NCBI GenBank assembly: GCA_023129535.1
Contig: JAGMBW010000009.1
Location: 1 to 38,626, forward strand
Length of the DNA: 38,626 nt
Reading direction: 5' to 3'
Source of the DNA: Desulfobacterales bacterium
GTDB taxonomy: Bacteria > Desulfobacterota > Desulfobacteria > Desulfobacterales > C00003060
The position numbers and the translations under genes are program-made. The notes under the pieces are model-generated. The model searched no databases. It was not told the origin of the DNA and was given only the letters and a program-made list of their open reading frames with translations. This document shows, piece after piece, positions 6,608 through 33,631 of this stretch (within the stretch, counting starts at the first letter, position 1; every line of letters begins with the position of its first letter).

Positions 6608-6615
6608 AAAATGTT

Positions 6616-6725: not shown

Positions 6726-6751
6726 GGTCTATCCAGGTTACGCGCTTTGGT

Positions 6752-9349: not shown

Positions 9350-10015
9350 TTATCTGGCAATCATGGCCCGCATGCGGTCCGAGGCGTTCTGCGCATGATC
9401 GGCAATCTCGCCCACATGCTCTACCAGCGTGACCAGGTGGAATACCACGAGCGCATCTTTGATGGTGTTGAAGATCTTGAATTTCAGCTCCCGCTCCAGA
9501 AGATCGGCCTCTCTTTCGTACTGGCGGATATCCCGCACAAGGCTCTTTATTTTGGTCCTTTGTGCCTCCGACCTGCTCCTGAAATATTGGGTGGCAAGGG
9601 CTACCAGGTCCGATAATTTTTCGATAGGCGGTATCACAGCTTTAACCAGGTGGCGGAAATCGGCGGCCACCTCGTCCGGGATGCCTGTGGGCCGGAACGA
9701 TAGCCAGAACAGGGCCTCTTCCACTTCGTCCAGAACCTTATCCTCCTCTCTGAGGTATTGAAGAAACTGGAATTTGTCGACCGGCATAAGGATTCCTCTG
9801 GGCAAATGGTTGCGAATGTCGCGCTTGATATCATCGGCCTCACTTTCTATCCGGGCCACCTGTTCGGTCAAAAGGTCAAACTCTTTGCAGTCCTCGCCGA
9901 TGTAGCAAACAGCAGCTTCTCCGAAAAGACGAGCACATTCTTTGGCCTTGTCGGCGTGCCTCTGCAGGTCTTTAAAAGGTGATTTGAAAAATAGCGAGCT
10001 AATTAATAGGCGCAT
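9350..10015 (-). CDS. DUF47 / PhoU-like phosphate transport regulator, copy 2
   Basis: A 221-aa PhoU-like protein, nearly identical to copy 1. Differences include Leu4 for Val, Glu for Gln in YIGEDCKEF, Thr for Ser in FRPTGIP and Lys for Arg in PIEKLSDL. The same AAAGGAGG ribosome binding site precedes ATG 10015. It is separated from pit copy 2 by 369 nt of repeats, against 144 nt in copy 1. The downstream flank (GTGCAGAATCGAACCGTC) is shared with the relic at 963-1096 but not with copy 1. Expected role is control of or coupling to the phosphate permease. Confidence 0.92.
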   Translation of the reverse strand: MRLLISSLFFKSPFKDLQRHADKAKECARLFGEAAVCYIGEDCKEFDLLTEQVARIESEADDIKRDIRNHLPRGILMPVDKFQFLQYLREEDKVLDEVEEALFWLSFRPTGIPDEVAADFRHLVKAVIPPIEKLSDLVALATQYFRSRSEAQRTKIKSLVRDIRQYEREADLLERELKFKIFNTIKDALVVFHLVTLVEHVGEIADHAQNASDRMRAMIAR

Positions 10016-10384
10016 AAAATGTTCCTCCTTTAAGTATTTGGAATTTAGGAATCCAGGGATTATTTTCCCTCAATTCCTAACCCGGATAAACCGGAACAAA
10101 AACTATCACGAAAACACGTACTGTTCTCAAGGCGCAAGCCGCAAAGTACGAAAACACGAAAGGCTGAATGTTTTTTTATTTCGTGCTTTCCCTGGCCCAG
10201 ACCTGGCTTACAGGCTTAGGAGACTGATTCGAGCACACAGCGCCAGGGCAGGCAATTTTTCGTGCTTTCGTGATTATCTTTTGAAATTTTCTGCCAGAAA
10301 AAACACGGATTTCAGAAGTAAGTGTCTAAATCCCTTAATCCCTCAATCCCTTAATTCCGGTCTATCCAGGTTACCCGCTTTGGT
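10016..10384. repeat. repeat-filled spacer between pit copy 2 and DUF47 copy 2
   Basis: Contains CCTAACCCGGATAAACCGG (also at about 31), an inverted pair ATCACGAAAACACG (about 10108) and CGTGCTTTCGTGAT (about 10261), a CCCTGGCCCAG block like that at 211, and an octamer array AATCCCTT/AATCCCTC/AATTCCGG at 10325-10360. I see no gene here. Relative to copy 1, this spacer has gained about 225 nt, which looks like an inserted hairpin element. Confidence 0.6.
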
Positions 10385-11641
10385 TCATAATAAAAACAGG
10401 GTCAGGACCTTGTACAAAACCATGGCCAGAACCATCGTGAATGGGAGGGTCACGATCCACGAAAGGCCGATATTCTTGAGAATACGCAGATCGAGCGTGC
10501 CCATGCCCCGCATGAGCCCTACTCCTACCACAGCCCCTACCAGGACGTGGGTGGTTGATACCGGCAGGCCGAGGCGGGAGCACATCAGGATAGTAGTGGC
10601 CGCTCCAAATTCTGCACAAAACCCCCGCAGCGGCGTAATCTCCGTAATGTTTTTTCCAATCGTCTCCATGACGCGCGTACCAAACACAAGAAGCCCTCCG
10701 CCCACGGCAATGCCACCCACAAAAAGCATCCAGAATGGGACCTCCACCTGCAAGACCACTGTCTTCGTTTTGACCACGGCAAAGATGGCTGCAAGCGGGC
10801 CAATGGCGTTGGCCACATCATTGGCCCCGTGGGCAAAGGCAACATAACAGGCCGTAAGGACCTGAAGCTGGGCAAAGAGACATTCCACGGGAGAGTATCC
10901 TCTGGAATCGGGTCGTAGTTCGCACTTAACATGCACCTGCCAGCGCACCCACTTGCGGCCAAACACTCCCGCCAGTGCAGCACATGGGGTTACCACCAGG
11001 AGAGTTTGCAAAAAGCCAATCTCGAGATGGAGGTTCTTGAGGCCCTTAAATATGACCGAGAGGATAAGGACCAGGGCAACAACAAAGATCATAGCAGGGG
11101 CGTAGTGAACTGCGGCAGCCTCAGGGTCCTTAGCGGACATGATCTTTTTCTCGGCGAAATAGAAAACCGCTCCTGCAATCATTGCCCCTGCAGCCGGTGA
11201 AATGACCCAACTCACGGCAATGGTGATGATCTTGCCCCAGCTTACAGCCCCTCCACCCACACTGATAATTCCAAAGCCAACCACTGCGCCAACAATGGCG
11301 TGCGTGGTAGATACAGGCAGACCAAAGTACGTTGCCAGATGCACCCAGAGGCTGGCGGAGACGAGGGCAGCAAACATCCCAAGCATCAGTTTGTTGGGCG
11401 TATCCGCGAGGAGGCCCGGGTCGATGATTCCCTTGCTGATCGTGCCGGTCACGTACCCGCCTGCAAGTCCGGCTCCAAGTATATTGGCAATGACCGACAC
11501 CACCACTGCTTGGTTTAGGGTCAACGCCCTGGACCCCACCGAGGTTCCCATGGCATTTGCTAGGTCATTGGCGCCAATATTGGCCGCCATGTACAGACCG
11601 AGCGCTGAGGCAATCGACAAGACAAAGATATCAATGTTCAT
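10385..11641 (-). CDS. PiT family inorganic phosphate permease, copy 2
   Basis: A 418-aa membrane permease with the same two PiT half-repeats as copy 1: GANDLANAMGTSVGSRALT with LPVSTTHAIVGAVVG, and HGANDVANAIGPLA with LPVSTTHVLVGAVVG. The two copies differ most in the loop after VFYFAEKKIMSAKDP and in the segment around residues 195-260, and not at all in the last 65 residues. Both are full length with no stop codons, so both may be active, perhaps with different affinities or regulation. The upstream region carries the MITE at 11706-11917, which may separate this copy from promoter elements kept by copy 1. Confidence 0.93.
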   Translation of the reverse strand: MNIDIFVLSIASALGLYMAANIGANDLANAMGTSVGSRALTLNQAVVVSVIANILGAGLAGGYVTGTISKGIIDPGLLADTPNKLMLGMFAALVSASLWVHLATYFGLPVSTTHAIVGAVVGFGIISVGGGAVSWGKIITIAVSWVISPAAGAMIAGAVFYFAEKKIMSAKDPEAAAVHYAPAMIFVVALVLILSVIFKGLKNLHLEIGFLQTLLVVTPCAALAGVFGRKWVRWQVHVKCELRPDSRGYSPVECLFAQLQVLTACYVAFAHGANDVANAIGPLAAIFAVVKTKTVVLQVEVPFWMLFVGGIAVGGGLLVFGTRVMETIGKNITEITPLRGFCAEFGAATTILMCSRLGLPVSTTHVLVGAVVGVGLMRGMGTLDLRILKNIGLSWIVTLPFTMVLAMVLYKVLTLFLL

Positions 11642-17407: not shown

Positions 17408-17439
17408 GTTTCAATCCACGCCCCCGTGCGGGGGGCGAC
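17408..17439 (-). CRISPR. solitary type I-C-like CRISPR repeat
   Basis: A 32-nt unit starting GTTTCAATCCACGCCCCCG and ending GGGGGGCGAC on the plus strand. It belongs to the same repeat family as 19158-19188 and 19224-19255. The minus strand gives the standard crRNA orientation (ends GTGGATTGAAAC, strong GC hairpin). No second repeat follows within 100 nt on either side. Confidence 0.85.
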
Positions 17440-18724: not shown

Positions 18725-19157
18725 AAGATTATCATGACCTCTCAGAAGATAAAGGGTAATAGTTCACCGCCCGCTTCGCTCAAGGCGCAGAGAGCGCAGA
18801 GTTTATCTTTATTTTGCTTTGCGCCTGGCGGCTTGAGAACATTACCGCTGAGAGGGCGGAAAGCAAAAAGAATCAGCCCCTCCTGTGTATGTGAAGGCAA
18901 CTCGCAATGATAACACAATGAATAATAGTGTATTAAAGTTAGACTATTACGCAGCAAAGCTGCTGAGTAGTTTTCCTTTGCCGTCCTCTCAACGGCAAAG
19001 GAAAAAAACTATCTTACTTTGCGTTCTCTGCGTCTCTGCGGTAAGCCATGACGATTTTATCACATAGGGCTGAACTGTTACGGCGAAAGCTTCACAAGTA
19101 ACTAAGTTTTGATTTGTGATTTCATGCACTTTGCTAACGCAATACGAGCTTATTTCA
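18725..19157. repeat. intergenic hairpins and gene-tail relic left of the array
   Basis: Contains GGCGCAGAGAGCGCAGAG (about 18782) facing the near-complement GCGTTCTCTGCGTCTCTGCGG (about 19021), a local hairpin CCTTTGCCGTCC/ACGGCAAAGG at about 18975-19000, and at 19071-19107 a tail of the decayed module seen at 15752-16129. About 70 nt up to the first I-C repeat resemble 16103-16170. I see no gene. Confidence 0.5.
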
Positions 19158-19255
19158 GTTTCAATCCACGCCCCGTGCGGGGGGCGACACGTGCCCGATT
19201 ATCCTCATCGGCGAGGAAAGTCTGTTTCAATCCACGCCCTCGTGCGGGGGGCGAC
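19158..19255 (-). CRISPR. two type I-C-like repeats at the old end of the array
   Basis: Repeats at 19158-19188 (31 nt, one C lost) and 19224-19255 (32 nt, one C-to-T change) flank a 35-nt spacer. A second 33-nt spacer-like gap leads to the truncated repeat at 19289. Orientation matches the main array. No I-C cas genes (cas8c/Csd1, cas5d) are in the window. Confidence 0.88.
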
Positions 19256-19288
19256 AGCTGTCAACTGATTTACAAATGGACGTCCCGC

Positions 19289-19315
19289 GTTTCCTCCGTG
19301 GATGTCTTTCTCCAG
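19289..19315 (-). repeat. truncated repeat joining the I-C and I-B-like repeats
   Basis: The right 18 nt (GTGGATGTCTTTCTCCAG) are exactly those of the main array repeat. The left part is shortened to GTTTCCTCC, a net loss of 9 nt that removes TTGTTTTA. It is followed by a 36-nt gap and then the first intact repeat, so spacing is kept. It would be expected to process poorly or not at all. Confidence 0.8.
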
Positions 19316-19351
19316 GTTCTCTACGGCACCTACAGTTCGCCTCCGCCCGCG

Positions 19352-22074
19352 GTTTCAATCCTTGTTTTAGTGGATGTCTTTCTCCAGTCAGCACCATCCC
19401 CGCCACCGTTATCGTCATAATGTTTCAATCCTTGTTTTAGTGGATGTCTTTCTCCAGATTAAATGCTTGGACACCCTGTGGCTCATTGACAGTTTCAATC
19501 CTTGTTTTAGTGGATGTCTTTCTCCAGATTGAGTACGGCCAGATTGCATTGAGACAATTCCCGTTTCAATCCTTGTTTTAGTGGATGTCTTTCTCCAGAT
19601 CGATATAGGTATCCGCAGCCGTTGTAGCTCCTGCGTTTCAATCCTTGTTTTAGTGGATGTCTTTCTCCAGTGCCCTATACTATAGCACTATTTGTGCCAC
19701 TAACATAGTTTCAATCCTTGTTTTAGTGGATGTCTTTCTCCAGTAAATTGTTTATCTTTTAATCCACTATTTTCTTAATGTTTCAATCCTTGTTTTAGTG
19801 GATGTCTTTCTCCAGTGTGTATCTGAAATGGTACAAAGCTTGTGTATTCCAGTTTCAATCCTTGTTTTAGTGGATGTCTTTCTCCAGTCATAGAATGCGG
19901 CTATGGATTACATCTATCTGTATCTAGTTTCAATCCTTGTTTTAGTGGATGTCTTTCTCCAGTGATACAAGTGGCAGTATAAACAAAACAGCACTAGCTG
20001 TTTCAATCCTTGTTTTAGTGGATGTCTTTCTCCAGTCCACAAAATCCGCATCGCAAGATCCCCATACCGGTGTTTCAATCCTTGTTTTAGTGGATGTCTT
20101 TCTCCAGTACTTTGGCAGTGACCGGAACATGGGCCACTATGTGTTTCAATCCTTGTTTTAGTGGATGTCTTTCTCCAGTCTCCCGGTCTGGTATTGGTAG
20201 ACCTGTTAGGTCGTGTTTCAATCCTTGTTTTAGTGGATGTCTTTCTCCAGTAATAGCGGGGCTTCCCCCGAACACATGGCAATATTGTTTCAATCCTTGT
20301 TTTAGTGGATGTCTTTCTCCAGTTTTGAGGATGTCCCTGGCCTGCGGGATGGGGATTTAGTTTCAATCCTTGTTTTAGTGGATGTCTTTCTCCAGTTTTC
20401 AATGAAACATGGAAAGCGTTTATAGCAATCTAGTTTCAATCCTTGTTTTAGTGGATATCTTTCTCCAGTATAATAACAGAGCTGCACAGGGATGGATTAA
20501 TATAGTTTCAATCCTTGTTTTAGTGGATGTCTTTCTCCAGTAAAATCCCCATCCCGCAGGCCAAGGACATCCTCAAAGTTTCAATCCTTGTTTTAGTGGA
20601 TGTCTTTCTCCAGTGAAAGAATGATGGGGGAAAACAATCCTTTCTATAAGTTTCAATCCTTGTTTTAGTGGATGTCTTTCTCCAGTTTAAATATCGAGTT
20701 GGATAAATCGTTAAGCCAATTGTTTCAATCCTTGTTTTAGTGGATGTCTTTCTCCAGTCCGGCATCTCCTATCAGTACGCTAAAGAATTACATAGTTTCA
20801 ATCCTTGTTTTAGTGGATGTCTTTCTCCAGTTTTTTCTGTTGCGCTTGCAATATGGATAAAGAATTGAGTTTCAATCCTTGTTTTAGTGGATGTCTTTCT
20901 CCAGTTGGCATCCAAGCGCAAACGGGTGTGGCTGGAGAGTAGTTTCAATCCTTGTTTTAGTGGATGTCTTTCTCCAGTATGTATATTGCCATCATAGTCC
21001 ACACTCACGACCTGTTTCAATCCTTGTTTTAGTGGATGTCTTTCTCCAGTCTAGACGATACCTCTATGGCCACCGCTGCGTCATCATGTTTCAATCCTTG
21101 TTTTAGTGGATGTCTTTCTCCAGTTCGCCCTGCACCGAATATTCTTTAGATCGCCATAAGGTTTCAATCCTTGTTTTAGTGGATGTCTTTCTCCAGTGGA
21201 ATCGCACCATGACGGACGGCAGATTCTGGTCATGTTTCAATCCTTGTTTTAGTGGATGTCTTTCTCCAGTAATAGTAACACCAGTAAGCCTGAATTGCAC
21301 GTCTCCGTGTTTCAATCCTTGTTTTAGTGGATGTCTTTCTCCAGTATAATCTACGACCACGTTGACCTGGACGGGATCGTGTTTCAATCCTTGTTTTAGT
21401 GGATGTCTTTCTCCAGTCATTCTCAAACGGTACCTGTCCGGTGATCAGGTTAGGGTTTCAATCCTTGTTTTAGTGGATGTCTTTCTCCAGTGCCCCCGTA
21501 CATTTACGGGGCGAATTAATATCCTATGTTTCAATCCTTGTTTTAGTGGATGTCTTTCTCCAGTTCTCTGGAAGCAAGGATTAGTGCCATCTTTTAGTGA
21601 GTTTCAATCCTTGTTTTAGTGGATGTCTTTCTCCAGTCCATGAGCGTCTGCTGTACCATCTCCATCCGTATCCGGTTTCAATCCTTGTTTTAGTGGATGT
21701 CTTTCTCCAGTGTCTATACCCCATTCGCCGGGGAGAACGAGTCTTGTGTTTCAATCCTTGTTTTAGTGGATGTCTTTCTCCAGTCTTTATCCATGGTTTC
21801 AAAAGGTAATCCTTCCATGTGTTTCAATCCTTGTTTTAGTGGATGTCTTTCTCCAGTTTTTCACGGTGATATAGATGATGTAAGCGTAAAAGTTTCAATC
21901 CTTGTTTTAGTGGATGTCTTTCTCCAGTTATGGTGGAGGCACTCAATATATCATCACTCTAAGGGTTTCAATCCTTGTTTTAGTGGATGTCTTTCTCCAG
22001 TGCCAAAAAGCGATCCGGCTTACTCCCGTCCGCTCAAGTTTCAATCCTTGTTTTAGTGGATGTCTTTCTCCAGT
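19352..22074 (-). CRISPR. CRISPR array, 38 repeats and 37 spacers, type I-B-like
   Basis: The repeat is 36 nt, GTTTCAATCC at one end and GTGGATGTCTTTCTCCAG at the other on the plus strand, with a 37th base T after 35 of 38 copies and A after copies 2-4. The only internal variant is copy 16 at 20433 (GGATATC for GGATGTC). Spacers are 34-39 nt with a 36-nt repeat. The minus strand is the likely crRNA sense: it ends ...GGATTGAAAC, giving the 8-nt handle ATTGAAAC typical of Cas6 processing, and places decayed repeats at the old end (left) and cas4 at the leader end (right). The spacers at 20323-20359 and 20541-20577 are near-exact reverse complements. Confidence 0.98.
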
Positions 22075-22227
22075 CCTAATTTCTCAAAATAGCACGAAAA
22101 AATAAGGAGTTACGATTTTTTTCGAGCCCTCCTATTCTGCCGGAAAGCTGGTTCAACAGCCCTGAAGTGGCCAGTTTTAGGTCTACCAGAGTCACGTTAA
22201 CGTCCTTTCATCCTTGCACTTTTTCTC
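22075..22227 (-). promoter_or_regulatory. CRISPR leader
   Basis: 153 nt between the cas4 stop and the first repeat, containing AT-rich stretches (AAAATAGCACGAAAAAATAA, CGATTTTTTTCG). By position and orientation it should contain the pre-crRNA promoter and integration signals read on the minus strand. No open frame is present. Confidence 0.7.
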
Positions 22228-22869
22228 TTAAATCACCTTTTCGCAAATATTTCTATAGCAGCAATCGCCACATCTGGCTCTGTATTTCGTTGGCTTCGGA
22301 TACACTCCTTTTTGTACGACATCCAAGAAATCTTTGATTATGCTGTCCAATTCGGAATACATTTGTTCGGTGATAGGGACTTCGATTAGTTTGTTCTGGC
22401 TTCTGGTGTAAACTATGAACCCGCGATTAACAGGTACTTGAAAGTTCTCCTTGATCAACTGACCATAAAATGCCAACTGATATTTGTGATTCTTGAAAAT
22501 TCGTTCTTTGTACTCCGCATATTTGTAATCAAGAGGCGCAGCAGTGCCATCATCCAGGAAAAGGATTTCGTCAACGATACCCCTTAGCCCCCGTTTACAG
22601 GAAAGATACACCGATTTCTTTCGCTCAACACATCCGAGTTTCTTTCTCAAATATTCCGGGTTAACCCGAATTTTGTCTTCATGTATCGTGCGCCCCTTTT
22701 GAACCTTAAAGCGCTTTTCCTGATGTTCCGAAATTTTCAAATACAGTTCAAAATAAGTGAACCGCGGGCAAAAAAGATGCTCAAGGATATCTGAGGCTGT
22801 GATGGAAAATCCAACTTCACCATCATTGATATCAGCAAACTCGGCATTTTCACTCAAAGCATGGGCCAT
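22228..22869 (-). CDS. cas4: Cas4 RecB-like nuclease
   Basis: A 213-aa adaptation nuclease that trims prespacers and selects their PAM end with Cas1-Cas2. Iron-sulfur cluster cysteines are Cys34 (HLFCPRFTYFEL) and Cys200, Cys203, Cys209 (CGDCCYRNIC). The nuclease core has His63 (GRTIHE), Asp100 (GIVDEI), Asp114-Tyr-Lys116 (PLDYKY) and QLAFYGQLI. Here the usual Glu of the EYK motif is Asp. It lies 27 nt after the AbiEii-like gene and directly before the leader, about 11 kb from cas1 and cas2, an unusual separation. Another group of genes may therefore control its expression. Confidence 0.93.
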   Translation of the reverse strand: MAHALSENAEFADINDGEVGFSITASDILEHLFCPRFTYFELYLKISEHQEKRFKVQKGRTIHEDKIRVNPEYLRKKLGCVERKKSVYLSCKRGLRGIVDEILFLDDGTAAPLDYKYAEYKERIFKNHKYQLAFYGQLIKENFQVPVNRGFIVYTRSQNKLIEVPITEQMYSELDSIIKDFLDVVQKGVYPKPTKYRARCGDCCYRNICEKVI

Positions 22870-22896: not shown

Positions 22897-23523
22897 CTAG
22901 AGCCCCAACTCATGCTCAAACAGGTTGATGTTATCAATAAAAAAAGACTTGATGTTGTCCCACTTCCAATCTTCTCCGCGTAACAGAATAGATGGAAGGG
23001 GCTCTTGCTCGGCATCTTCGAAGAAAGTCAGACTCTTCAATACATGGTAAAAGTTAATATCAGAGCCCTTGAAGCGCTTTTTGAAAAGGTCACATACCTC
23101 TCGCACAGAATACCTCATCTTCAAGACGGCATAGAGATCAATGAAATCTTTCTTTGAACCTCGTTGTGAAATGGCTTTGATCTTTTCCGCCACAATATCT
23201 TTGCTGTGAGCTACCGTGATCCCATGCCAGGACAGGGTGGGATGCATCAAGGGAACTTCATAATAGAGAAAGGAAACTCGAATACCCTTTATATCACAGT
23301 GTATAGTCCCGAGAGCGGTAAAAAACACCTTATCAGTAGAAATCAAAGAAAGAATGGCGTCTGTGTTGAACAGCCTGTCGGAGAAAAAGTCCAAATCATC
23401 GGATCTCCTGTGTCCCAATTGCAAGCCAAGTCCCGTCCCTCCTGCCAGATAAAACGCTCCCACGTGGGGTGACAAAGATTCGACTACTTCTATAGCTTCC
23501 TGGGATAGTATTTGCTCAAACAT
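22897..23523 (-). CDS. AbiEii/AbiGii-type nucleotidyltransferase toxin
   Basis: A 208-aa protein of the nucleotidyltransferase AbiEii family, whose members act as toxins in type IV toxin-antitoxin or abortive-infection systems. The motif FYLAGGTGLGLQLGHRRSDD followed by LDFFS at residues 24-48 supplies GGT plus Asp43/Asp45. Later it has IVAEKIKAISQRGSKKDFID, the second conserved block with Lys and Asp. It overlaps the upstream DUF6922 gene by 34 nt and precedes cas4 by 27 nt, so it is likely co-transcribed with cas4. Confidence 0.88.
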   Translation of the reverse strand: MFEQILSQEAIEVVESLSPHVGAFYLAGGTGLGLQLGHRRSDDLDFFSDRLFNTDAILSLISTDKVFFTALGTIHCDIKGIRVSFLYYEVPLMHPTLSWHGITVAHSKDIVAEKIKAISQRGSKKDFIDLYAVLKMRYSVREVCDLFKKRFKGSDINFYHVLKSLTFFEDAEQEPLPSILLRGEDWKWDNIKSFFIDNINLFEHELGL

Positions 23524-23789
23524 GGTACCTCTGTGAAAGGAATATTGAACTTGACTGCCCAGTATTTTCCGGTTTGTGGGAACAAGCCTCTCCTTGTTCG
23601 AATTACCTCCACGATCTTTTCGTCAGGATATATATCCCTGAGCACCCGCACATCCTCGATGTCACCATAGTCCAGAATTCTGGCTATGACGTAAGCAGCG
23701 TGCTGCACCGCATCAATATCATCCGCATCCCAGAAAATAGAGGGGCGAAACATCGATTTAATGTTCAATCTTTGCATATAATGAAGCAT
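23490..23789 (-). CDS. DUF6922-like partner of the AbiEii toxin
   Basis: A 99-aa protein (MFRPSIFWDADDIDAVQHAA, VIARILDYGDIEDVRVLRD, IRTRRGLFPQTGKYWAVKFN). Small proteins of this kind are commonly encoded just upstream of AbiEii-type nucleotidyltransferases and are taken to be antitoxins. There is no clear helix-turn-helix. The overlap with the toxin gene implies coupled translation. The first methionines (codons 1, 4, 13) are alternatives; none has a strong ribosome binding site. Confidence 0.75.
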   Translation of the reverse strand: MLHYMQRLNIKSMFRPSIFWDADDIDAVQHAAYVIARILDYGDIEDVRVLRDIYPDEKIVEVIRTRRGLFPQTGKYWAVKFNIPFTEVPCLSKYYPRKL

Positions 23790-23883
23790 CTCCTACGGTA
23801 TCAAGGGCTTATCTCTTTTCTTGCAACCCTTCTTATCGTTTTCACAATCCCTAAATCCCTGAATTCCATAATCCCTCAATTCC

Positions 23884-23973
23884 TCAATTCCTAACCACCG
23901 TCCCAAACCCCCGCGACACAGGCTTGCCGATCCCGCAGTAATCAGCGATTTCAAAATTGACGGAAAAGGTGCC
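23884..23973 (-). pseudogene. cas6 3'-end relic 1
   Basis: The minus strand reads GTFSVNFEIADYCGIGKPVS then RGFGTVVRN and a stop. The genuine cas6 end is GTFSVNFEIPDYWGIGKSVS, RGFGTVVRD. The matching octamer array (AATCCCTG, AATTCCAT...) lies beside each. The copy is only about 30 codons and lies just downstream of the MNT gene, about 0.9 kb from cas6. Confidence 0.92.
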
Positions 23974-23979
23974 GAAATG

Positions 23980-24303
23980 TCAGATTATCCTCTCGCCAGA
24001 CTCTATTATTTCCTTGATATACGGGTTGGTTTCGTCGAAATCTGATTTTCCAAAAGAATGCGGCTCTATTCGTAAATCCACCTTCCTGGTGAGCTTCATC
24101 AAAAGCACATCCTCGTCAAAACCATCTATCTCATCCTTGTTCCAAAAAACGGCCAAATCAATATCGCTATATTTATGATAGGTGCCTTTGGCATAAGACC
24201 CATATAAATATAAACGCCAGACGGGTATGTTATGGTCTTTCATTACATTTACATACTTTTTTATGAGCAGATAAATTAACTCTTTATCTTTTCTATGAGC
24301 CAT
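23980..24303 (-). CDS. MNT-type minimal nucleotidyltransferase (antitoxin of HEPN pair)
   Basis: A 107-aa protein with the MNT signature YLYGSYAKGTYHKYSDIDLA at residues 32-51 (Gly35-Ser36, Asp47, Asp49), plus the third acidic residue in KVDLRIEP. In characterised HEPN-MNT pairs the MNT protein AMPylates the HEPN RNase and silences it. It overlaps the HEPN gene by 28 nt and follows it. The pair is inserted between cas6 and a cas6 relic, inside the CRISPR locus. Confidence 0.88.
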   Translation of the reverse strand: MAHRKDKELIYLLIKKYVNVMKDHNIPVWRLYLYGSYAKGTYHKYSDIDLAVFWNKDEIDGFDEDVLLMKLTRKVDLRIEPHSFGKSDFDETNPYIKEIIESGERII

Positions 24304-24668
24304 TGCCGTAATTCCTTGATCGCGGTTATATGCTGCCCGGTGAACCCTTTTGTGGCCTTCTTGTGGAACTTGAATTTATAGTCAGGATACCGCGTTCTAA
24401 TATTGAACGCTGTAACCTCAAGCAAATAGTTCTTCTGCTCTTCTGAAAGATCAATGTCTGCTTGCTCAGCCAGTCTCAGCAGATGGTGAATCAGCGGCGG
24501 ATTGTTATCAATATTCCTGACGTAATGAGCTTTTAGAAGTTTTTCAATAACAAGGTGAGCAACAAACAAGGCCCAAACATAGTGGCCTTTATCGTAAAGG
24601 CTCTCCATAGCCTGAAAATCCACTTCTGATGAATCGATCCAATATTTTACAATTTCTTCCTTTGTCAT
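24276..24668 (-). CDS. HEPN-domain protein (putative RNase toxin)
   Basis: A 130-aa all-helical HEPN protein of the COG2250 type: YVWALFVAHLVIEKLLKAHY, then PPLIHHLLRLAEQA and NIRTRYPDYKFKFHKK. The Arg51 to His61/62 spacing is longer than the RX4-6H of active HepT toxins, so catalytic activity is uncertain. It is transcribed with the MNT gene. ATG 24668 is used; the preceding 20 nt contain the end of a cas6 relic. Confidence 0.82.
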   Translation of the reverse strand: MTKEEIVKYWIDSSEVDFQAMESLYDKGHYVWALFVAHLVIEKLLKAHYVRNIDNNPPLIHHLLRLAEQADIDLSEEQKNYLLEVTAFNIRTRYPDYKFKFHKKATKGFTGQHITAIKELRQWLIEKIKS

Positions 24669-24809: not shown

Positions 24810-25508
24810 TCAATCCCTGACCACCGTCCCAAACCCCCGCGACACAGATTTGCCAATGCCCCAGTAATCAGGGATCTCAAAATTGACGGAAAAGGTCCCC
24901 AGGAAGCCGAGCATGGGGGTGCCTTTAAGCTCTGCGTGGATCTCTCCGAGATGACGGATATCAGCCATAATTCTGCCTGGAACCGTGTATCCCAGGCCTT
25001 TACTCATAGAAATGATATTGCCCACTAGAATTCTTTCCAACATTTCTTTCCTGCTGACTTGAGCCCCCAGTCTCTGATACTTTTCATAGTTCTTTTCGTT
25101 AAGGCCAAGCCATGGGGTCAAAAACTTATATTCTCGTCTCCTATCAAGGAAACCAATACTCGGCGCCCAAAAGGACATCTCTTGCTGTTCAACGATGTAT
25201 TCCTCGTTCCCAAGACTCAGCCGCTTTTTTAAGACAAGTGCGTTTACGACATCTACCGCTCCTTTCCAAAGACCGACAATAAATCCGTTGCCTTTGATGA
25301 TTTTGTACTGGATCAGCGGATAGTTATAGATCAGAGTCCCATCATTTGCATGTTGGTGGAAAAGGACATTATCTTTTTTCAGATTGGCCATCGCTCCGCG
25401 TAAGTCTTTCGGCTTGACCAACAGGCTGAGTGGCCGGTCAAAGATGAGTTTTATAATACATTGGTTTATCGTTACACTGTCTTGAGTCATGACGGTAGCG
25501 TCTTTCAA
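24810..25508 (-). CDS. cas6: Cas6-family crRNA endoribonuclease
   Basis: A 232-aa RAMP protein that should cleave pre-crRNA inside the repeat and leave the ATTGAAAC handle. The strongest sign is the C-terminal glycine-rich loop GIGKSVSRGFGTV. Other parts have low conservation, as usual for Cas6: SLLVKPKDLRGAMANLKKDN near the start and PGRIMADIRHLGEIHAELKG later. It overlaps cas3 by 4 nt (ATGA) and is the last gene of the cas8-cas7-cas5-cas3-cas6 operon. Two further cas6 tails lie downstream as relics. Confidence 0.85.
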   Translation of the reverse strand: MKDATVMTQDSVTINQCIIKLIFDRPLSLLVKPKDLRGAMANLKKDNVLFHQHANDGTLIYNYPLIQYKIIKGNGFIVGLWKGAVDVVNALVLKKRLSLGNEEYIVEQQEMSFWAPSIGFLDRRREYKFLTPWLGLNEKNYEKYQRLGAQVSRKEMLERILVGNIISMSKGLGYTVPGRIMADIRHLGEIHAELKGTPMLGFLGTFSVNFEIPDYWGIGKSVSRGFGTVVRD

Positions 25509-27859
25509 AATACCAGAGTATCCCCATCCGAATCCCAGAATTTGTTTTCCAGCATAATGCCCCGTTCCAAATCATAATAGCCCTCGCGTAAAACCCAGTG
25601 CCCCAAAAACTCTGTTGCAATTTCCTGGGGAGAAAATCCACGTCGAGCAAAGAGATTAACAGAAATCTCCGCAATCCTTCCTGCGAGTTTACGCCAGGCT
25701 TCCCGACGTTTCCAACGGTCATCAATACGATTGGCATCAGCCATCGCTTCCTTAAGGGAAGGGTCCTGTTCTATAACCAAAAAGGTGTGTTGCTCTCGCT
25801 CCTTACCCCTTAGTAATTCTTTGACAGATACGTCTTCTTGCCACCGAACGAATTTATTGAGGTGTTCTTTGCCCGTATCTTTTAGCTTGTCAAGTTCTTC
25901 AAAATAACGATCTGAAATAGGCAATACGTCTTCTTCTTTGATAACAGGAAAAGATTCGATGAGCCTCCTGGTCTCCTGCAAAGAAACCTCATCATAGATC
26001 ATCTCTGAATATCGCCGCCCCTTTTCATTTACCAGGTCTACAATTTCAACTGGAAGCCACTTTCCGCCTCTCCCTTCCCGGTTACACCGGCCGGCGATTT
26101 GCACGATACTATCCCACGGTGCAAAATCTCGGATAACCAGCCCCATATCAATGTCCACCCCAGCTTCGATGCACTGAGTGGATACCACAATACATGGTTG
26201 ACCATGTTTAATAAGGTCTATTTTTCGTAGTCGATCTTTTGGAGTCACGTCGGCACTCAAGAAGAACATCGGTATATCTTTGTATTCCTCCGGCCAGTTG
26301 TGCTTCAGGTGATCATATACTGTACGAGCGCTTTTTCGAGTGTTCAAGGTGACCAGTACTCTTTCTTTCTTGTTAAGCCAATCATTCAATCGTGTCGCAA
26401 GATCTTCACAGAAATCCTGAATATGGGTCTTTTCACTTATGTGCAAGTGCAACTCGTAGCGTGAAAAAGCTTTGAAATACTCTTTATAGTTCTCCAACAA
26501 GGGGATTGTTTCTGAAACAAACGGAGGCAGGGTTGCCGACATCAAAAGTATCTGACTGTTCCCCATTCCGGCTAAACTATGAAGAACAGCGTTTAACAAC
26601 TGCCACAGTTTGCATGGCAAGGACTGAACTTCATCCATGATAATCAAGGCATCACACAAATTGTGAAAACGCATTTGATATCTTGCCCTGGGTTCTATCA
26701 AACTCAATAAGAATTGGTCATAGGTTGTAATAACCAATTCAGTTCGCCATGTATCAATAAAAAAATGTTCTGCGCTTTCTTCCATCCAGGGAGCATATTT
26801 ACGGTCAGAGAGTGAATGACTGGTCAGGAACCAGGATCCATCAACTTCTTGGCCGCTTATTTCAAGAAGAGACCTGTATTCTTTGGCTGTTTGATCGATA
26901 ATGGAAAGGTAGGGCAGTACCACGATTATCTTGGGAGGAATAACAGAGTTTCTTTCAATACTTTCCCGCTTTCTAAGTGCCCACGTAGCAGCCAGCAGCG
27001 TTTTTCCAATGCCCGTGGGAGCGGTCATGTAGTAAATGCCGCCTTGTCGTTTGTCCATTGTATTTTTTATTACTTCGGTTCTAGCTTTTTTTCTCAAAAA
27101 ATTTACGGGGTTCTCTTCACATTTCCCTATCTTTTGATCTACCCAAGCAGCCTGCCAATGTCGAGGGTTCCGCTCGAGGTGAGCTTTTGGATCAGGCACG
27201 GCCAAAAACGCCTTGTCAGCTTCCAATAGAAAAGAAAAAATCAGTTGAGCCTTGAGCCTGAAATCAACACCCTTCTCAAGAGTCAGCGCATGAAATTCGG
27301 GCATGATTTTTTCTTGCAAGAACCTGTCTGCTTCCCGAAGGCTTTTATTTGATAAGCAGAATCGTTTGAGATTGATTCCGGTTTCCTCTTCCAGACACAA
27401 CAGATCCAAAGTGGGCAGTTGTTTTTTTAAGGCCCTGGCGATATGGCCGCCTGTGAAGTCGTCTAAGGTTCGACATGAACTGCCGTTTTCACTGAATTTT
27501 CTACTGGGCAGGTTCGGCAAACCACCATGATGTCCATATGCGGAAGCTGCCAGGATGAGAGTGTCCAGGGATGTCCACCCTTCTTCTTTGGACAACAATA
27601 AAGTGAGGAGGAGTGATAAAGGAGCATGAGCCTTTTCTATCGGATCTCCTTGGAAGGAAGCGGGGTCCTCGATGAATTCCTGGAAAGCATCCGACCCCTT
27701 TCCCAAATCATGAAGCCGGGCGAGTTTTCTGGACAACCATTTCACTTTTTCAGAGACTAATTTTTCCGAGTGCCATTGCCAGATTCCGTCCATAGCAAGC
27801 TGAACCTGAGCAATGTGTTCTCGCAGGAACAGATCCGGATGAGACTTCAAATTTTTCAC
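25505..27859 (-). CDS. cas3: Cas3 HD nuclease-helicase
   Basis: A 784-aa effector that unwinds and degrades target DNA after Cascade binding. The HD nuclease at the N-terminus has His15, His50-Asp51 (RLHDLGKGS) and His110-His111 (GHHGGLP). The SF2 helicase has Walker A Gly285-Lys-Thr (TAPTGIGKT), DEVQ at 409-412, SAT at 441-443, and motif VI QIAGRCNREGRGG near residue 600. All metal- and ATP-binding residues are present, so it looks active. It overlaps cas5 by 4 nt at the start and cas6 by 4 nt at the end. Confidence 0.97.
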   Translation of the reverse strand: MKNLKSHPDLFLREHIAQVQLAMDGIWQWHSEKLVSEKVKWLSRKLARLHDLGKGSDAFQEFIEDPASFQGDPIEKAHAPLSLLLTLLLSKEEGWTSLDTLILAASAYGHHGGLPNLPSRKFSENGSSCRTLDDFTGGHIARALKKQLPTLDLLCLEEETGINLKRFCLSNKSLREADRFLQEKIMPEFHALTLEKGVDFRLKAQLIFSFLLEADKAFLAVPDPKAHLERNPRHWQAAWVDQKIGKCEENPVNFLRKKARTEVIKNTMDKRQGGIYYMTAPTGIGKTLLAATWALRKRESIERNSVIPPKIIVVLPYLSIIDQTAKEYRSLLEISGQEVDGSWFLTSHSLSDRKYAPWMEESAEHFFIDTWRTELVITTYDQFLLSLIEPRARYQMRFHNLCDALIIMDEVQSLPCKLWQLLNAVLHSLAGMGNSQILLMSATLPPFVSETIPLLENYKEYFKAFSRYELHLHISEKTHIQDFCEDLATRLNDWLNKKERVLVTLNTRKSARTVYDHLKHNWPEEYKDIPMFFLSADVTPKDRLRKIDLIKHGQPCIVVSTQCIEAGVDIDMGLVIRDFAPWDSIVQIAGRCNREGRGGKWLPVEIVDLVNEKGRRYSEMIYDEVSLQETRRLIESFPVIKEEDVLPISDRYFEELDKLKDTGKEHLNKFVRWQEDVSVKELLRGKEREQHTFLVIEQDPSLKEAMADANRIDDRWKRREAWRKLAGRIAEISVNLFARRGFSPQEIATEFLGHWVLREGYYDLERGIMLENKFWDSDGDTLVF

Positions 27860-28581
27860 AGAAACATCAATACTTCGCTATGGGTTTGAAACGCCTGATC
27901 TGTCTCCACAGGTACAGGACGTGCATCTCGTTCCATAAAGTAATTTTCGTGGGAGAAAACTCTGTCTGGAGTCACCGTCCGTGGCATCCGCAAAAAGTGG
28001 ATTACCAATTCATCCTCAAAGATCTTGTCGGTATCCAGTCTGCCGTTTTTCTGTGGGAAGATGGAATTCACATGGTAAGAACCCTCAGACAAAGACGAAG
28101 CCTCCCCCGATTTCAGATAGGTCAATTCAGCCATCATCTCCGATAACCCCAGACTTGGTTGAAAATGCCATCTCCTTTTCATCAACCTTTCTTCTAGTTC
28201 GCCGAAATAAGGTTCCGGCACAGAAACCCATACAGTGTAAACCGGGTTTAAAAGCCATTCCTGCCCAATCAATGTTGCTTTCTCAGGCTTTGTTGTTCTA
28301 GGGCTTCTGTGGCTTTTTTTTACAGTTCTTGGCAGGGCCGCGGGAGGGTCTTTTCTCAATTTGGCCTTATGCCAGTGTGTTTGCGGAAGCTTGCCACTGA
28401 GGGCGATACAAGCCGGTTGAAGAAGGGACTGTGGTTGGTCTTTTTCCAATCCAAGAACTGCACCTATTATTCCCAGGATGACAGTTCTTGGCGGAACAGG
28501 ATAAGTCGGTGCACTGGCTCCGCCTTCAGCCCGCAGAAAGTGGCCGTATCGTCCGCTTAATCGAAACGATATTAATCTCAT
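27856..28581 (-). CDS. cas5: Cas5 (type I-B-like) Cascade subunit
   Basis: A 241-aa RAMP protein that caps the 5' handle of crRNA in Cascade. The N-terminal MRLISFRLSGRYGHFLRAEG followed by YPVPPRTVILGIIGAVLG is the Cas5 signature (first beta strand, glycine loop, and PPRTxxxGxxGAxLG helix). The C-terminus contains HSEVLMFL. It starts 12 nt after cas7 and overlaps cas3 by 4 nt. Confidence 0.93.
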   Translation of the reverse strand: MRLISFRLSGRYGHFLRAEGGASAPTYPVPPRTVILGIIGAVLGLEKDQPQSLLQPACIALSGKLPQTHWHKAKLRKDPPAALPRTVKKSHRSPRTTKPEKATLIGQEWLLNPVYTVWVSVPEPYFGELEERLMKRRWHFQPSLGLSEMMAELTYLKSGEASSLSEGSYHVNSIFPQKNGRLDTDKIFEDELVIHFLRMPRTVTPDRVFSHENYFMERDARPVPVETDQAFQTHSEVLMFL

Positions 28582-28593: not shown

Positions 28594-29580
28594 TCACTTA
28601 GGGTTTTCGGTTTTGAGATTTTCCACATCAAGGCAAACCCAATTAGCCGGCACATCTTGGATAAACTGTATGTCTGATGATTTGTCGTACCTTATTTTTT
28701 CTATCCGACCTTTTTGGCCATTGAGTCGCTCTATCAATGTACTCAGATCCACTTTGTAGTCTCCCGGTGAAGCCCATACCTTTTCCGGTTTCTCATTAAC
28801 GGCTTGAAGTTTTGTATAGTCATGGAGCCGTCCAAACTGGAATTCCTCACCCTTTTTGTATTCAATACTGATAAGAAAATGGGGAATCTGCCCGACCTTG
28901 GTTCTGGTATTTCCCGCCGATCTTACACCATGCCACATTGCCTTTAGAAATAGGTCGTAATCATCATCTGAAAGCAAGGAAATTTTGGCCGAGTGTTCGT
29001 TAGCAACACCAGAAAAGCCAATCAACGCATACCGGAGTCCAAAATAGGTAGTAAACGTTCCCTGGGTTTTTTCTGCACCACTGGCAAAGATGGATGTCCC
29101 ATGAATATCCACTTCCTCGGCCTGATGAAGCACTTCTCCCATGTTGAGTTGAACAGCACCCGTCATTGTCTTTGGGATTGGTTCCCATTTTGCTTTTCTA
29201 CTACTTTCTCCCTTTACTTCTTCAGCCTTAAATGCAAAGGAACTACCAAATAGCCTTGCATCAATAAAGGCATTCAGAAGTATCCTGACTAAATCCTCGG
29301 CATTTGCCTCTTTTTGGTTATGTTTTTGCAAATAATCCACAACCCTGCCGGTCAAATTAGTCGTGCGACCCTCAATATTGTCAACAAGGATATCCTGCCC
29401 TCGGTTCTTCAGAAAATCCCGTATAAAACGTTTAAGCCGGACATCGGTTACGTAGTGGGTTCCATCCGGCAAAACCCTCGGTCGGTTTTCATCAGGGTCA
29501 CCGTTAGGGTTACCCATTTTAATGTCATACAAAAAAAGAAATTCACGTCTTCCGGAAAGGATATTTGCATCTTCTTTCAT
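28594..29580 (-). CDS. cas7: Cas7 (Csh2/Csd2 type) Cascade backbone
   Basis: A 328-aa RAMP protein that polymerises along the crRNA. It has the family motif MGNPNGDPDENRPRVLPDG at about 22-40, TDVRLKRFIRDFLKNRG after it, GAVQLNMGEVLHQAEEVDIH, and GLRYALIGFSGVANEHSAKI in the middle. Length is typical of I-B Csh2. It begins 12 nt after cas8 and has a 12-nt gap to cas5. Confidence 0.95.
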   Translation of the reverse strand: MKEDANILSGRREFLFLYDIKMGNPNGDPDENRPRVLPDGTHYVTDVRLKRFIRDFLKNRGQDILVDNIEGRTTNLTGRVVDYLQKHNQKEANAEDLVRILLNAFIDARLFGSSFAFKAEEVKGESSRKAKWEPIPKTMTGAVQLNMGEVLHQAEEVDIHGTSIFASGAEKTQGTFTTYFGLRYALIGFSGVANEHSAKISLLSDDDYDLFLKAMWHGVRSAGNTRTKVGQIPHFLISIEYKKGEEFQFGRLHDYTKLQAVNEKPEKVWASPGDYKVDLSTLIERLNGQKGRIEKIRYDKSSDIQFIQDVPANWVCLDVENLKTENPK

Positions 29581-29592: not shown

Positions 29593-31581
29593 CTATTTTT
29601 TCTTGAGTATTGTTTTTGTCATGGATTGCCCCAACAACAGATAGTAATTAGTTTGGGTCTGGCTCAGCTCAATGGGGTCTCCTAATTTAACGCCTATTAC
29701 GCCAATTTCATTAATCAAATCCCTGACCTTCTGGCTTTTTTCAGCTTCATAGGCGAGCAGTTTTTCCCGAATCTTAACATAAAGTTCGGGTAAATCTTTT
29801 CCTTTAAGAGTCAGTCTCTTTAGCCATGTGAGCGCGTTGGCTCCTACATTGACGCCCTTGCCCCCTTGAATTTCAAGCAATCTGCCATAAAGCGCTCCCA
29901 ACAAAAAGGCGTATGCCTTTTCCGGTGAATTGATACCGCTTTCCGTTCCAAAATATGGCTTCAGCGATACCATCTCAGGTTCAAAAAAATAATCGTTCAT
30001 TTCCAACACCTCCAAACATCTAAAATAATAAATCCACCAAACCATGTGTCTTATCCAGCCCGCTGCGGTAGGATATGGTCCTTTCTTGCCTTTGCCCTCA
30101 TATAACAGGGACTTGTAACCATCTTTGTTCTCTATAGATTGCAGACACCACCACCGAGCTGTTTCCATTACTTCATCCCAAAAACGCTGAGATGGTATGT
30201 GTGTTTTATGATACACCGCAGTAGCGATTGTTCGTTTAAGCTGAAATAATCTTTTGCTGTTGTTGGCATTCTGAGCCTTTTTCCCGCCAGGTCTGTAAAA
30301 TAGAGGGGATAACGCTTTCAATGAAAGATCCGCCCTTAAATCGAACCTGCCGCTTGATAATGCAATTTCGGGAAAAAGGGGATGCTTCCAGTTTTTGGAA
30401 TTTTCATTGATCTGTGAAAGTTCTCTGAGTCTGGTGGGAGGAACATCGGTTAACACACCTGTCACGTTTTCAAGATTCTGCCCAATATCAGCCCATAAAA
30501 AAGTGAGATTCAGAATTCCTTTTTCATCTTTTAAAATATCAAGCAGGGTTTCTTCATCAGCATCTACGTCCGTGGAAATGTTCCTGATAAATTTATCTAG
30601 TTTTCTTAACAGGTTCTGACGCATACCGGCATTCATAGCGGAAAATGGAATAATGAGCGCGGACTCACCAGCGATTCTTGCAGTAAAAGGTATTCGGTCT
30701 TTCTTGGGGCCAGTTTTTTTCAATACATGGTTTTTGTAAACATAAAGGAGGTCAGCACAGGGTACACAAAGTGCATATCCTTTCCATGCCTGGGACAAAT
30801 CAATACCAGGAAAAGCGCCTTCGCGGTCCATATTGCTTAAATTGATTCCCGCACCTTTTAAGGCATTGGGAAAAATGGAAACATCCGTTGTTCCGCAAAG
30901 TGGGCATGTGCATGCTTTATTCGCATCCACCTTTTGTGTTAGATAACGATCTCCGGCAAGCTTTTCATTTAAAAGATATTCACGATATTCAGAGCGTTGA
31001 CCTGGAAAATTCCCCATTTTATCTTGCACGGCAATCAACGATGTCCCTTTCACTGGCCCAATCTCTCGGACTATACATTCTAAAAGAGATTCATAACCCC
31101 TATCCTTCCAATTTATAATGGTGCCATCCAGCCTTATTGTTGGTAATTCCAGAATACCAAATATTTCCTCGAAATAGGAAGACCACGGTTTCCCCTGTTT
31201 GGCGAGCTCTTTGAAATGTTTCATAGTTGTGTTCAGTATTTTACGAGATGGCCCTCCTCCTTTAGCTTTTGTGTAGCTGCGCTTGATAATAGGACCTATT
31301 TGAGCACTCATGTTGCCGGACGGTTTAACAAACGGCAAATATTGTGATATTTCCGGAGTCATGTCTCTAACAAACAATTCAGCAACATCTTTTTCGTTAG
31401 ACTTTTTAATAACAAAAATTTTTTCGGTTTTTTCTGTATCTTCAACTAAAAATCGAAATAGTTTTTCTGGAGTATTAGCCCTCAAATCTTGATACCAGGT
31501 ATCAAGATTATCCGGTGGATACCCCCCATCCACCTCTTGAAACAGATAATCCAACGCCAAGGTTCGCATGGCACCAAGCAT
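29593..31581 (-). CDS. cas8b: Cas8b/Csh1-like large subunit
   Basis: A 662-aa large Cascade subunit, expected to read the PAM and recruit Cas3. A zinc site is formed by CPLCG (Cys226, Cys229) and CVPC (Cys272, Cys275), as in the Csh1/TM1802 group. The N-terminal DYLFQEVDGGYPPDNLDTWY and the central PFTARIAGESALIIPFSAMN also fit that group. Overall similarity in Cas8 is low, so subtype rests on the neighbours (Csh2-type Cas7, Cas6, Cas4). AAGGAGG lies 8 nt before ATG 31581. It is the first gene of the interference operon, and its promoter region is duplicated upstream of the 294-aa gene. Confidence 0.88.
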   Translation of the reverse strand: MLGAMRTLALDYLFQEVDGGYPPDNLDTWYQDLRANTPEKLFRFLVEDTEKTEKIFVIKKSNEKDVAELFVRDMTPEISQYLPFVKPSGNMSAQIGPIIKRSYTKAKGGGPSRKILNTTMKHFKELAKQGKPWSSYFEEIFGILELPTIRLDGTIINWKDRGYESLLECIVREIGPVKGTSLIAVQDKMGNFPGQRSEYREYLLNEKLAGDRYLTQKVDANKACTCPLCGTTDVSIFPNALKGAGINLSNMDREGAFPGIDLSQAWKGYALCVPCADLLYVYKNHVLKKTGPKKDRIPFTARIAGESALIIPFSAMNAGMRQNLLRKLDKFIRNISTDVDADEETLLDILKDEKGILNLTFLWADIGQNLENVTGVLTDVPPTRLRELSQINENSKNWKHPLFPEIALSSGRFDLRADLSLKALSPLFYRPGGKKAQNANNSKRLFQLKRTIATAVYHKTHIPSQRFWDEVMETARWWCLQSIENKDGYKSLLYEGKGKKGPYPTAAGWIRHMVWWIYYFRCLEVLEMNDYFFEPEMVSLKPYFGTESGINSPEKAYAFLLGALYGRLLEIQGGKGVNVGANALTWLKRLTLKGKDLPELYVKIREKLLAYEAEKSQKVRDLINEIGVIGVKLGDPIELSQTQTNYYLLLGQSMTKTILKKK

Positions 31582-31697
31582 TCCTATGCCCTCCTTTTAG
31601 TATTATGTCGCAAAAAGTGTGACTGAAAGGAACATCTTGCAACCCCTGTTGTATAAACTGTTAATAAACAGTGACACCATCACCCCACCCGTTTATA

Positions 31698-31890
31698 TGA
31701 GAATGCATATACTACCATATGCATATGCACTCATATGCAACCGCTTATAAACGGTGTGGTTGTTATTGTGAAGCACCGTCAAACCACCGCCTGAAAATGA
31801 GGCTTTTGGTTTACGAAACCACCATTTCATAAACCAAAATGCACATGTTTTTTTGTATACCACACCACTGCGACAGATCCGGCCCGCCTG
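31698..31890 (-). promoter_or_regulatory. upstream regulatory region of the cas8 operon
   Basis: Holds a perfect inverted repeat ATGCATAT-N6-ATATGCAT at 31703-31724, followed by further ATATGCA sites to 31739, 122 nt before the cas8 start codon. The far end carries CAGATCCGG at about 31874. The same layout occurs at 33146-33318 before the 294-aa gene. ATATGCAT sites in this number suggest binding of a dimeric repressor or activator; the protein is unknown. Confidence 0.65.
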
Positions 31891-32112
31891 ACAAGTCCTG
31901 GCATTGGCGGGCAGGTCACCCTGGGATCATTTCGGAATGTGGATTTCGGATTGCGTTTTCTGCCTTTCTTCCGGGAAGGCAGAAACCCAAAAAAATCCCT
32001 CAAATCCTGCCTGCCCCGCCTGCCCTGTGCAGTGCCTTGCTACTTCACTGGGGTAGGTGGGGACCATCGTACTGGGGTCCGTCCTGTCTAACCCAAAACA
32101 CTTACGACCAAC
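31891..32112. other. spacer with no gene between the cas8 promoter and the cas2 relic
   Basis: GC-rich filler containing a short hairpin TCTGCCTT/AAGGCAGA at about 31968-31984 and repeated CCTGCC-type words. This stretch is absent between the true cas2 stop and the sister promoter region at 33146-33318, so it looks like an insertion. No open frame is credible. Confidence 0.35.
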
Positions 32113-32170
32113 TAAAAGAACTGCTCAAGCATTTCATCGTTTACCAGCTCTTTGTCAAACTTTTGCCCCG
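32113..32170 (-). pseudogene. cas2 3'-end relic
   Basis: In the frame one base off the overlapping gene the minus strand reads GQKFDKELVNDEMLEQFF and then TAG. The real Cas2 ends GQGFDKKLVNDEILQQFF. About 19 codons survive. The relic joins the 3' end of the 294-aa gene directly and supplies, out of frame, its last codons (SLTKSW, stop). Confidence 0.93.
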
Positions 32171-33025
32171 CTCAATTTTCTTCACATCTCTAAGAATCCC
32201 CTCACTGTCCTTCCGATCTATCCAAAAATTGCCAACCAGATCAAAAAAGTTGAGCCATAGGCTGTTTTCCTTTCGATCAAAGATAAAATGATTCTGGCTA
32301 TCATACGTAAAAAAGTAGGTCGGGATGGGCTTTTCGCTGCTCAAGAGAGCGAACAGGTGACCATAAAAGCCGTGATTATATCGCTGGCCACTGCTGCCGG
32401 AGCCGCCTTGTTCATAATAGAAAAATCCGGCCTGATCTTTACCAAAGTAATATTGCTGCCAGGCGTTTCTGCTATCCCAGTGACTGAAAGGACGCGGCAT
32501 TTCGTACCTACGGTGATATTCGTATTCAACTCTCGCCCTGAAAGGATCTTCCTTTTTCCAGTATTCTTCCCATTCGTCTTCATAAAGCTCTTGATATTCT
32601 TCCTTGACCCGTTCGATCGCTATCGGATAAACCTCCAGGTCCAAATCCTTGATGACTTTATCCCTGATATCCCCCTCTTTCACGTCTTTGAATTCCGGAT
32701 CGCCCTTTAGCGCCTCAACCCGTTTATCGATAAGCTTCAGATGTTCCCTGTTCCTGTCCCACCAATATTTTCTGGCCTCTGCTTCCACCAGAGAACATAA
32801 ATGGACCTCCTCTTTCTCCGCGTAACGCTCGTCCTCCCAGAGATCATCTTCAAGGAGTTCCATAAAAACGTATGCCGAGAAAAACTGCATGGTCCTATCA
32901 ATTTTTTCAAATACATCTTCCAGGGACTTGTCTGACATGAAAGAGGATAAATCAAAGTGCCTTATTTCATCGGAGTTCGCCTTTTCTATCACTTCCTTAA
33001 TGATTTCAGGATACTCTGCCCGCAT
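32141..33025 (-). CDS. unknown 294-aa acidic, aromatic-rich protein between cas2 and cas8
   Basis: Not recognised. It is mostly helical and very rich in Glu, Asp, Tyr and Trp (WEDERYAEKEEVHLCSLVEA, YQELYEDEWEEYWKKEDPF), followed by a glycine-serine stretch (YEQGGSGSSGQRYNHGF) and a beta-rich end (PIPTYFFTYDSQNHFIFDRK, WLNFFDLVGNFWIDRK). No membrane segment, nuclease or helicase motif is seen. Its last nine residues come from fusion to a cas2 relic; the two related 3' relics at 36789 and 38374 end naturally as NRIE plus a few residues. It has its own promoter region, homologous to that of cas8. Co-regulation suggests a role in the CRISPR response, but it could equally be an accessory defence gene. 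Confidence 0.75.
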   Translation of the reverse strand: MRAEYPEIIKEVIEKANSDEIRHFDLSSFMSDKSLEDVFEKIDRTMQFFSAYVFMELLEDDLWEDERYAEKEEVHLCSLVEAEARKYWWDRNREHLKLIDKRVEALKGDPEFKDVKEGDIRDKVIKDLDLEVYPIAIERVKEEYQELYEDEWEEYWKKEDPFRARVEYEYHRRYEMPRPFSHWDSRNAWQQYYFGKDQAGFFYYEQGGSGSSGQRYNHGFYGHLFALLSSEKPIPTYFFTYDSQNHFIFDRKENSLWLNFFDLVGNFWIDRKDSEGILRDVKKIERGKSLTKSW

Positions 33026-33145: not shown

Positions 33146-33167
33146 ATGCATATCATAGCATATGCAT
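33146..33167 (-). promoter_or_regulatory. operator-like inverted repeat upstream of the 294-aa gene
   Basis: ATGCATAT-CATAGC-ATATGCAT, 8-bp perfect arms with 6-nt centre, 121 nt before the start codon; more ATATGCA copies follow to 33183. It is the counterpart of 31703-31724. The homologous region continues to GATCCGG at about 33311, just before the cas2 stop. There is no gene in 33026-33334 apart from this control region. Confidence 0.65.
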
Positions 33168-33334
33168 ATATGCCCATATGCAAACGCCTACAAAAGGACC
33201 CGTATGTTATCACAAAATGGTGTGAGTCCAGCGGTGAACATGTGACTTTCGGTTGCCAGACGCGCCATTTTGGCAATTGTTCAGCACATTATACGGCTCA
33301 ACTCTGACAGATCCGGTCACGGTTATAAGAATTT

Positions 33335-33631
33335 CTAGAAGAATTGTTGCAGTATCTCGTCGTTGACCAGCTTTTTGTCAAAGCCCTGGCCCAGAACTTT
33401 GACCGCCCTGAAATCTTCCTGGCAGAACGGAAACAGATAGACGCTGTCTGTCTCTTCATCGATCAGGCTCAGGCATGCTTCGGCCAATTCATCAAACCGG
33501 TTCCTTTCGAGTTTCCCGAGAAACACGCTCTTTTGAACGCGGATCAGGCCATACTGTTTGCATGTCTTGGCCACCTTGTTCCGGCGTTTGTCAGCGCTAA
33601 CGTCGTACAGTATCCAAACGAGTACAGACAC
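33335..33631 (-). CDS. cas2: Cas2
   Basis: A 98-aa adaptation protein that forms the Cas1-Cas2 integrase. VLVWILYDVSADKRRNKVAK with the conserved first-strand Asp, KQYGLIRVQKSVFLGKLERN, and SVYLFPFCQEDFRAVKVLGQ are standard for Cas2. GTG 33631 is the start, with GGAG 9 nt upstream. It is separated from cas1 by the four-helix-bundle gene and two octamer arrays. Confidence 0.95.
   Translation of the reverse strand: MSVLVWILYDVSADKRRNKVAKTCKQYGLIRVQKSVFLGKLERNRFDELAEACLSLIDEETDSVYLFPFCQEDFRAVKVLGQGFDKKLVNDEILQQFF

Follow-up and report, generated by a model that had tools for sequence, protein, structure and literature searches.

A near-exact reverse-complement spacer pair in a type I-B CRISPR array of a Desulfobacterales bacterium

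Analysis of a 38,626-nt window (the whole stretch of DNA considered here) from a Desulfobacterales bacterium revealed a type I-B CRISPR array in which one spacer, A, matches the reverse complement of another, B, at 34 of 36 positions, and the two share both ends. The most likely source of the two spacers is a single site carried by two slightly diverged variants of one element. On balance, they appear to have been gained by independent, PAM-directed acquisitions from opposite strands of that site, with a PAM presumably lying outside each of its ends.

Organization of the array and of the spacer pair

The array (19352–22074, minus strand) consists of 38 repeats of 37 nt and 37 spacers. The crRNA-strand repeat is ACTGGAGAAAGACATCCACTAAAACAAGGATTGAAAC, 37 nt in its repeat class, and the sequence of the array repeats includes AAACAAGGATTGAAAC. 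A comparison of the 36 constant bases demonstrated that 37 of the 38 repeats are exact, the exception being the copy that begins at position 20433, which carries one substitution. Based on the orientation of the crRNA-strand repeat, the array is transcribed from right to left and has its leader at the right end; the leader side (22075–22227, minus strand) was assigned from this orientation, from a degenerate repeat at the opposite end, and from AT-rich sequence. The degenerate I-B repeat (GCGTTTCCTCCGTGGATGTCTTTCTCCAGG) is found at 19283–19318, directly left of the array, and is apparently a decayed old array end, in agreement with the left end being the old one.

Given the 37-nt repeat of the class, the T residues at 20323 and 20541 are the last bases of the repeats, and spacers A and B thus occupy 20324–20359 and 20542–20577 (minus strand), 36 nt each. 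Spacer A (crRNA strand, TAAATCCCCATCCCGCAGGCCAGGGACATCCTCAAA) is the older of the two and the 24th from the leader, while B (crRNA strand, TTTGAGGATGTCCTTGGCCTGCGGGATGGGGATTTT) is the newer and the 21st. They are separated by two unrelated minus-strand spacers, the 23rd (20397–20432) and the 22nd (20470–20504) from the leader. As B is closer to the leader, it was acquired three insertions after A.

The alignment bore out the initial annotation, which had described the pair as reverse complements with 34 of 36 matches and identical boundaries; the pair itself stands at the coordinates originally given, except that each start (20323 and 20541) took in one base of the repeat. The exact block shared by A and the reverse complement of B, GGCCTGCGGGATGGGGATTT, is slightly longer than the stretch reported at that time. 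In the plus-strand reading, the two differences are C/T at position 14 of A and A/T at position 36, which correspond to crRNA positions 23 and 1, the latter in the seed. The C/T difference is silent in one reading frame on each strand and decides nothing. Considering the 666 spacer pairs of the array, the probability of such a pair arising by chance is about 1e-15. A and B are the only related pair in the array (local score of 33 versus 12 for the next best), and an independent repeat search recovered them as an inverted repeat of 35 nt with 97% identity.

The spacers of the array show a base bias at their crRNA 5′ ends. Position 1 is A or T in 31 out of 37 spacers (P ~0.0004), position 4 is A in 19 out of 37, and G is depleted at position 1 in most arrays of the repeat class. 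This bias is a preference beyond the PAM.

Three repeats of the type I-C kind (GTTTCAATCCACGCCC..GTGCGGGGGGCGAC) adjoin the I-B array at 17408–17439, 19157–19188 and 19224–19255, and two of the three bracket one spacer. No further copies were detected in the genome beyond the window at up to 3 mismatches. A former I-C array, since lost, probably left these lone repeats behind.

The searches for a target of the pair returned no protospacer. The IMG/VR database was queried with an exact 30-mer, two shorter cores and three codon-degenerate patterns, phages and plasmids were searched by blastn, the organism's own genome and 60 relatives were scanned, and 389 genomes of the class were screened with up to 3 mismatches. 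The best blastn match, to Streptomyces phage LibertyBell (31 nt, 87%, E-value of 0.03), was taken as chance. The whole array compared with phages gave weak or repeat-driven matches only. The I-B array repeat is absent from the genus mates, hence they offer no sister array for comparison.

The cas genes and their neighbourhood

A type I-B CRISPR-Cas locus, complete and encoded on the minus strand, is present in the window. PADLOC matches were obtained for Cas6b (24810–25508), Cas3b (25505–27859), Cas5b (27856–28581), Cas7b (28594–29580) and Cas8b (29593–31581), as well as for the products of the adaptation genes, Cas2b (33335–33631; E-value, 2e-39), Cas1b (34296–35318; E-value, 4e-123) and Cas4b (22228–22869; E-value, 8e-80), all encoded on the minus strand. 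Cas4 has been linked in the literature to correct spacer orientation. The Cas4 of this locus is full length and the only one in the genome; its comparison with solved structures returned repeat-protein noise only.

The gap between Cas4 and Cas6 (22897–24668) holds two gene sets: a nucleotidyltransferase of the AbiEii type accompanied by a DUF6922 protein, and a HEPN and nucleotidyltransferase pair. These genes, which lie within the cas cluster, are toxin-antitoxin-like. Near Cas8b, Cas2 and Cas1 lie genes for proteins of 294 aa (32141–33025) and 187 aa (35456–36019), neither of which matched any Pfam or PADLOC family. AT-rich palindromic stretches rich in TGCATATG are located upstream of cas8b (31674–31769) and upstream of the gene for the 294-aa protein (33147–33197), and are possible operators. 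An element of ~187 nt is present at gene edges around the cas locus in three copies that are 65–83% alike (32106–32314, 36786–37002 and 38374–38582). Elsewhere in the window, the gene pairs (221 aa and 418 aa) at 5942–8008 and 9350–11641 are tandem near-duplicates, with DNA 92–98% alike; judged by eye, the duplicated pair encodes a PhoU-like protein with a phosphate permease.

Spacer overlaps and the PAM in 175 arrays

For comparison, 175 arrays with 4,328 spacers were surveyed, some sharing the repeat class of the A/B array and others belonging to Cas1-linked systems of the phylum, for which Cas1 gene neighbourhoods (profile TIGR03641) were drawn from a sample of 395 phylum genomes. Cases in which one protospacer had been taken twice in the same orientation, with differing ends or sequence, were counted as same-strand re-acquisitions. 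Out of 46 such cases, 36 have identical crRNA 5′ (PAM-side) ends, and the 3′ ends usually vary by 1–2 nt. Thus, the PAM fixes the 5′ end, and spacer length acts as a loose ruler. Among these cases are variant re-acquisitions (the L077, L114, L218 and L178 pairs) which, like A and B, represent one site taken twice into one array with few mismatches; in contrast to A and B, the members of these pairs point the same way and differ chiefly at the PAM-distal end.

Overlaps between spacers of opposite strands were found within genomes in 20 pairs, with offsets from −21.5 to +24 and no excess at zero. The 19 pairs other than A/B come from Cas4-type I-B and I-C arrays (e.g., L205, L178, L141, L144) and resemble A/B in that a single genome, and usually a single array, has spacers from both strands of one stretch. 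They differ from it in offset, which is exactly zero for A/B and 1.5 to 24 nt for the others, L205 (−1.5) and L178 (−3.5) being the closest. Three pairs have a shift of 4 nt or less, compared with ~3.8 under an even spread. Spread over 47 offsets, the 19 other pairs lead one to expect ~0.4 exact coincidences (probability of one or more, ~0.33); by our own arithmetic, this figure falls to ~0.2 when the count is restricted to the seven other overlaps that reach 20 nt. The initial annotation had regarded the exact coincidence of both ends as remarkable, a view that these numbers do not sustain. The spread of offsets is uneven, short overlaps being somewhat over-represented (Kolmogorov-Smirnov test on absolute shift, P of 0.03), which points to a deficit rather than an excess near zero offset. 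Judging roughly from the 15 reverse-complement matches between genomes, ~0.3 within-genome pairs should have arisen by chance, so the short overlaps are not mainly fortuitous. The opposite-strand overlaps of 20–33 nt within genomes (L141, L144, L178, L205, L146, L034/L058 and L058/L124) have mostly negative shifts, i.e., PAMs spaced beyond one spacer length, in what is a small sample.

PAM triplets were read from overlapping spacers in which one spacer exposes the flank before its neighbour. For the same repeat class, this yielded CCG, TCA, TCG, TTA, TTG, CTT, TCA, TTT, TCG, TCG and ATT. With T at −3 in 8 of the 11 flanks and C or T at −2 in all of them, the PAM of the A/B repeat class is short, about TYN. 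In the opposite-strand pairs of this class with a visible flank, the triplets beside the reverse-complement partners are all of the YYN type (CCG, TCA, TCG, CTT and TCG). When applied to type I-C arrays, the same method gave mainly TTC, which is a published type I-C PAM (PMC8482600), and the method was thereby checked. At a random position, a TYN PAM has a probability of ~0.14; therefore, many protospacers are expected to have a second PAM on the opposite strand one spacer length away.

Origin of the pair and its meaning

The 18 repeats that are as old as B or older have accumulated one substitution per 648 bases. If one spacer had been copied from the other within the array, 0.11 differences would be expected, and 2 are observed (P ~0.006). 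Thus, the differences most likely predate insertion, which means that two target variants were sampled. The reading of A and B as two variants is well supported, and the proposal of the initial annotation that the same protospacer was taken twice in opposite orientations, most likely from two variants, holds. The same numbers make it very unlikely that one spacer was excised or copied from the other and re-inserted in reverse, e.g., by a reversal of Cas1-Cas2 integration. Such an event would fit the exactly coincident ends of two spacers only three positions apart in one array, and Cas1-Cas2 disintegration has been shown biochemically (PMC8390005); however, 2 differences in 36 nt contrast with the substitution rate of equally old or older repeats, and a second exactly coincident inverted duplicate was found neither in this array nor in the 174 others. 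The precursor transcript from A to B is computed to fold with a 35-bp duplex between the spacers (−111 kcal/mol versus −64 kcal/mol for shuffles; z of −8.4). A broader version, in which B was made from A, or both from an array-born fragment, by excision and inverted re-insertion as Cas1-Cas2 recycled its own spacers, and in which the 35-bp hairpin affects the crRNA supply of both units, is highly improbable as well. An element with two inverted copies of the site, one for each spacer, could supply two slightly different sequences on its own. However, since orientation is set by the adjoining PAM, copies with the same flanks would give spacers of the same strand, and the pair would call for a second PAM or a flip all the same; this origin is hardly to be expected. 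The genome is a draft assembly in 230 contigs, which leaves some room for an assembly or sequencing artefact, or for the inversion of an array segment. Yet an inversion would also turn the flanking repeats, and all of the repeats keep one orientation; furthermore, two unrelated spacers lie between A and B, which differ at two positions. The probability of such an artefact or inversion is considered very small.

The reading preferred here is that of two PAM-directed acquisitions. The site would bear a PAM (approximately 5′-TYN-3′) just outside each end, the two facing outward and 36 nt apart. One acquisition would then have been made from each side, and the spacer-length ruler would have made the ends coincide. 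By distance from the leader, A was gained first, the two unrelated spacers followed, and B came last, most likely from a variant of the target. B may owe its acquisition to priming by A, whose guide mismatches that variant, and the difference between the B variant and A at crRNA position 1, in the seed, would suit an escape followed by primed acquisition.

A rare flip is a possible, though less probable, origin of the pair. According to this explanation, both spacers come from one PAM-defined prespacer site, and one of them was integrated backwards by Cas1-Cas2 in a single event. Flipping is a documented error of adaptation; for type I-F, fewer than 0.5% of spacers are estimated to be flipped (PMC5059440). 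Spacers flipped during primed or naive adaptation in that type, or in type I-E, would likewise represent the same protospacer reversed with coincident ends; their defining mark is a PAM at the wrong end, and the A/B system is of type I-B with Cas4. The surveyed arrays often took up one PAM site more than once (46 cases), a flip would bring the ends together automatically, within the 1–2 nt of the ruler, and the two spacers that it left behind would be no different from those of two acquisitions from two PAMs. On the other hand, the 175 arrays show no excess at zero offset, A/B being the sole exact candidate against 46 same-strand re-acquisitions, and the Cas4 tied to correct orientation is intact in length. 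Both spacers also begin with T, in keeping with the A/T preference at crRNA position 1, which was weighed against a flip; the preference as such does not discriminate between a flip and acquisition from two PAMs. With 46 re-acquisitions and a rate of at most 0.5%, ~0.2 flips are expected, versus 0.2–0.4 chance coincidences. Because these expected counts are similar, acquisition from two PAMs is preferred to a flip only moderately. As for the loss of orientation control, which the initial annotation had named as one of two alternatives, TYN-like PAMs are also found beside opposite-strand spacers, so no such loss is implied. Loss of orientation through a missing Cas4 was rejected, the protein being present, full length and encoded by a single-copy gene.

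The A/B pair needs no new mechanism and offers an uncomplicated natural example of a single invader site recorded from both strands. Common flipping in Cas4 systems would have shown up as a surplus of pairs at zero offset, and none was seen in the 175 arrays. The survey provides a baseline for judging similar pairs: PAM-side ends are mostly exact, far ends vary by 1–2 nt, and opposite-strand offsets are many. It also demonstrates that overlapping spacers suffice for reading PAMs, with no need of a protospacer database.
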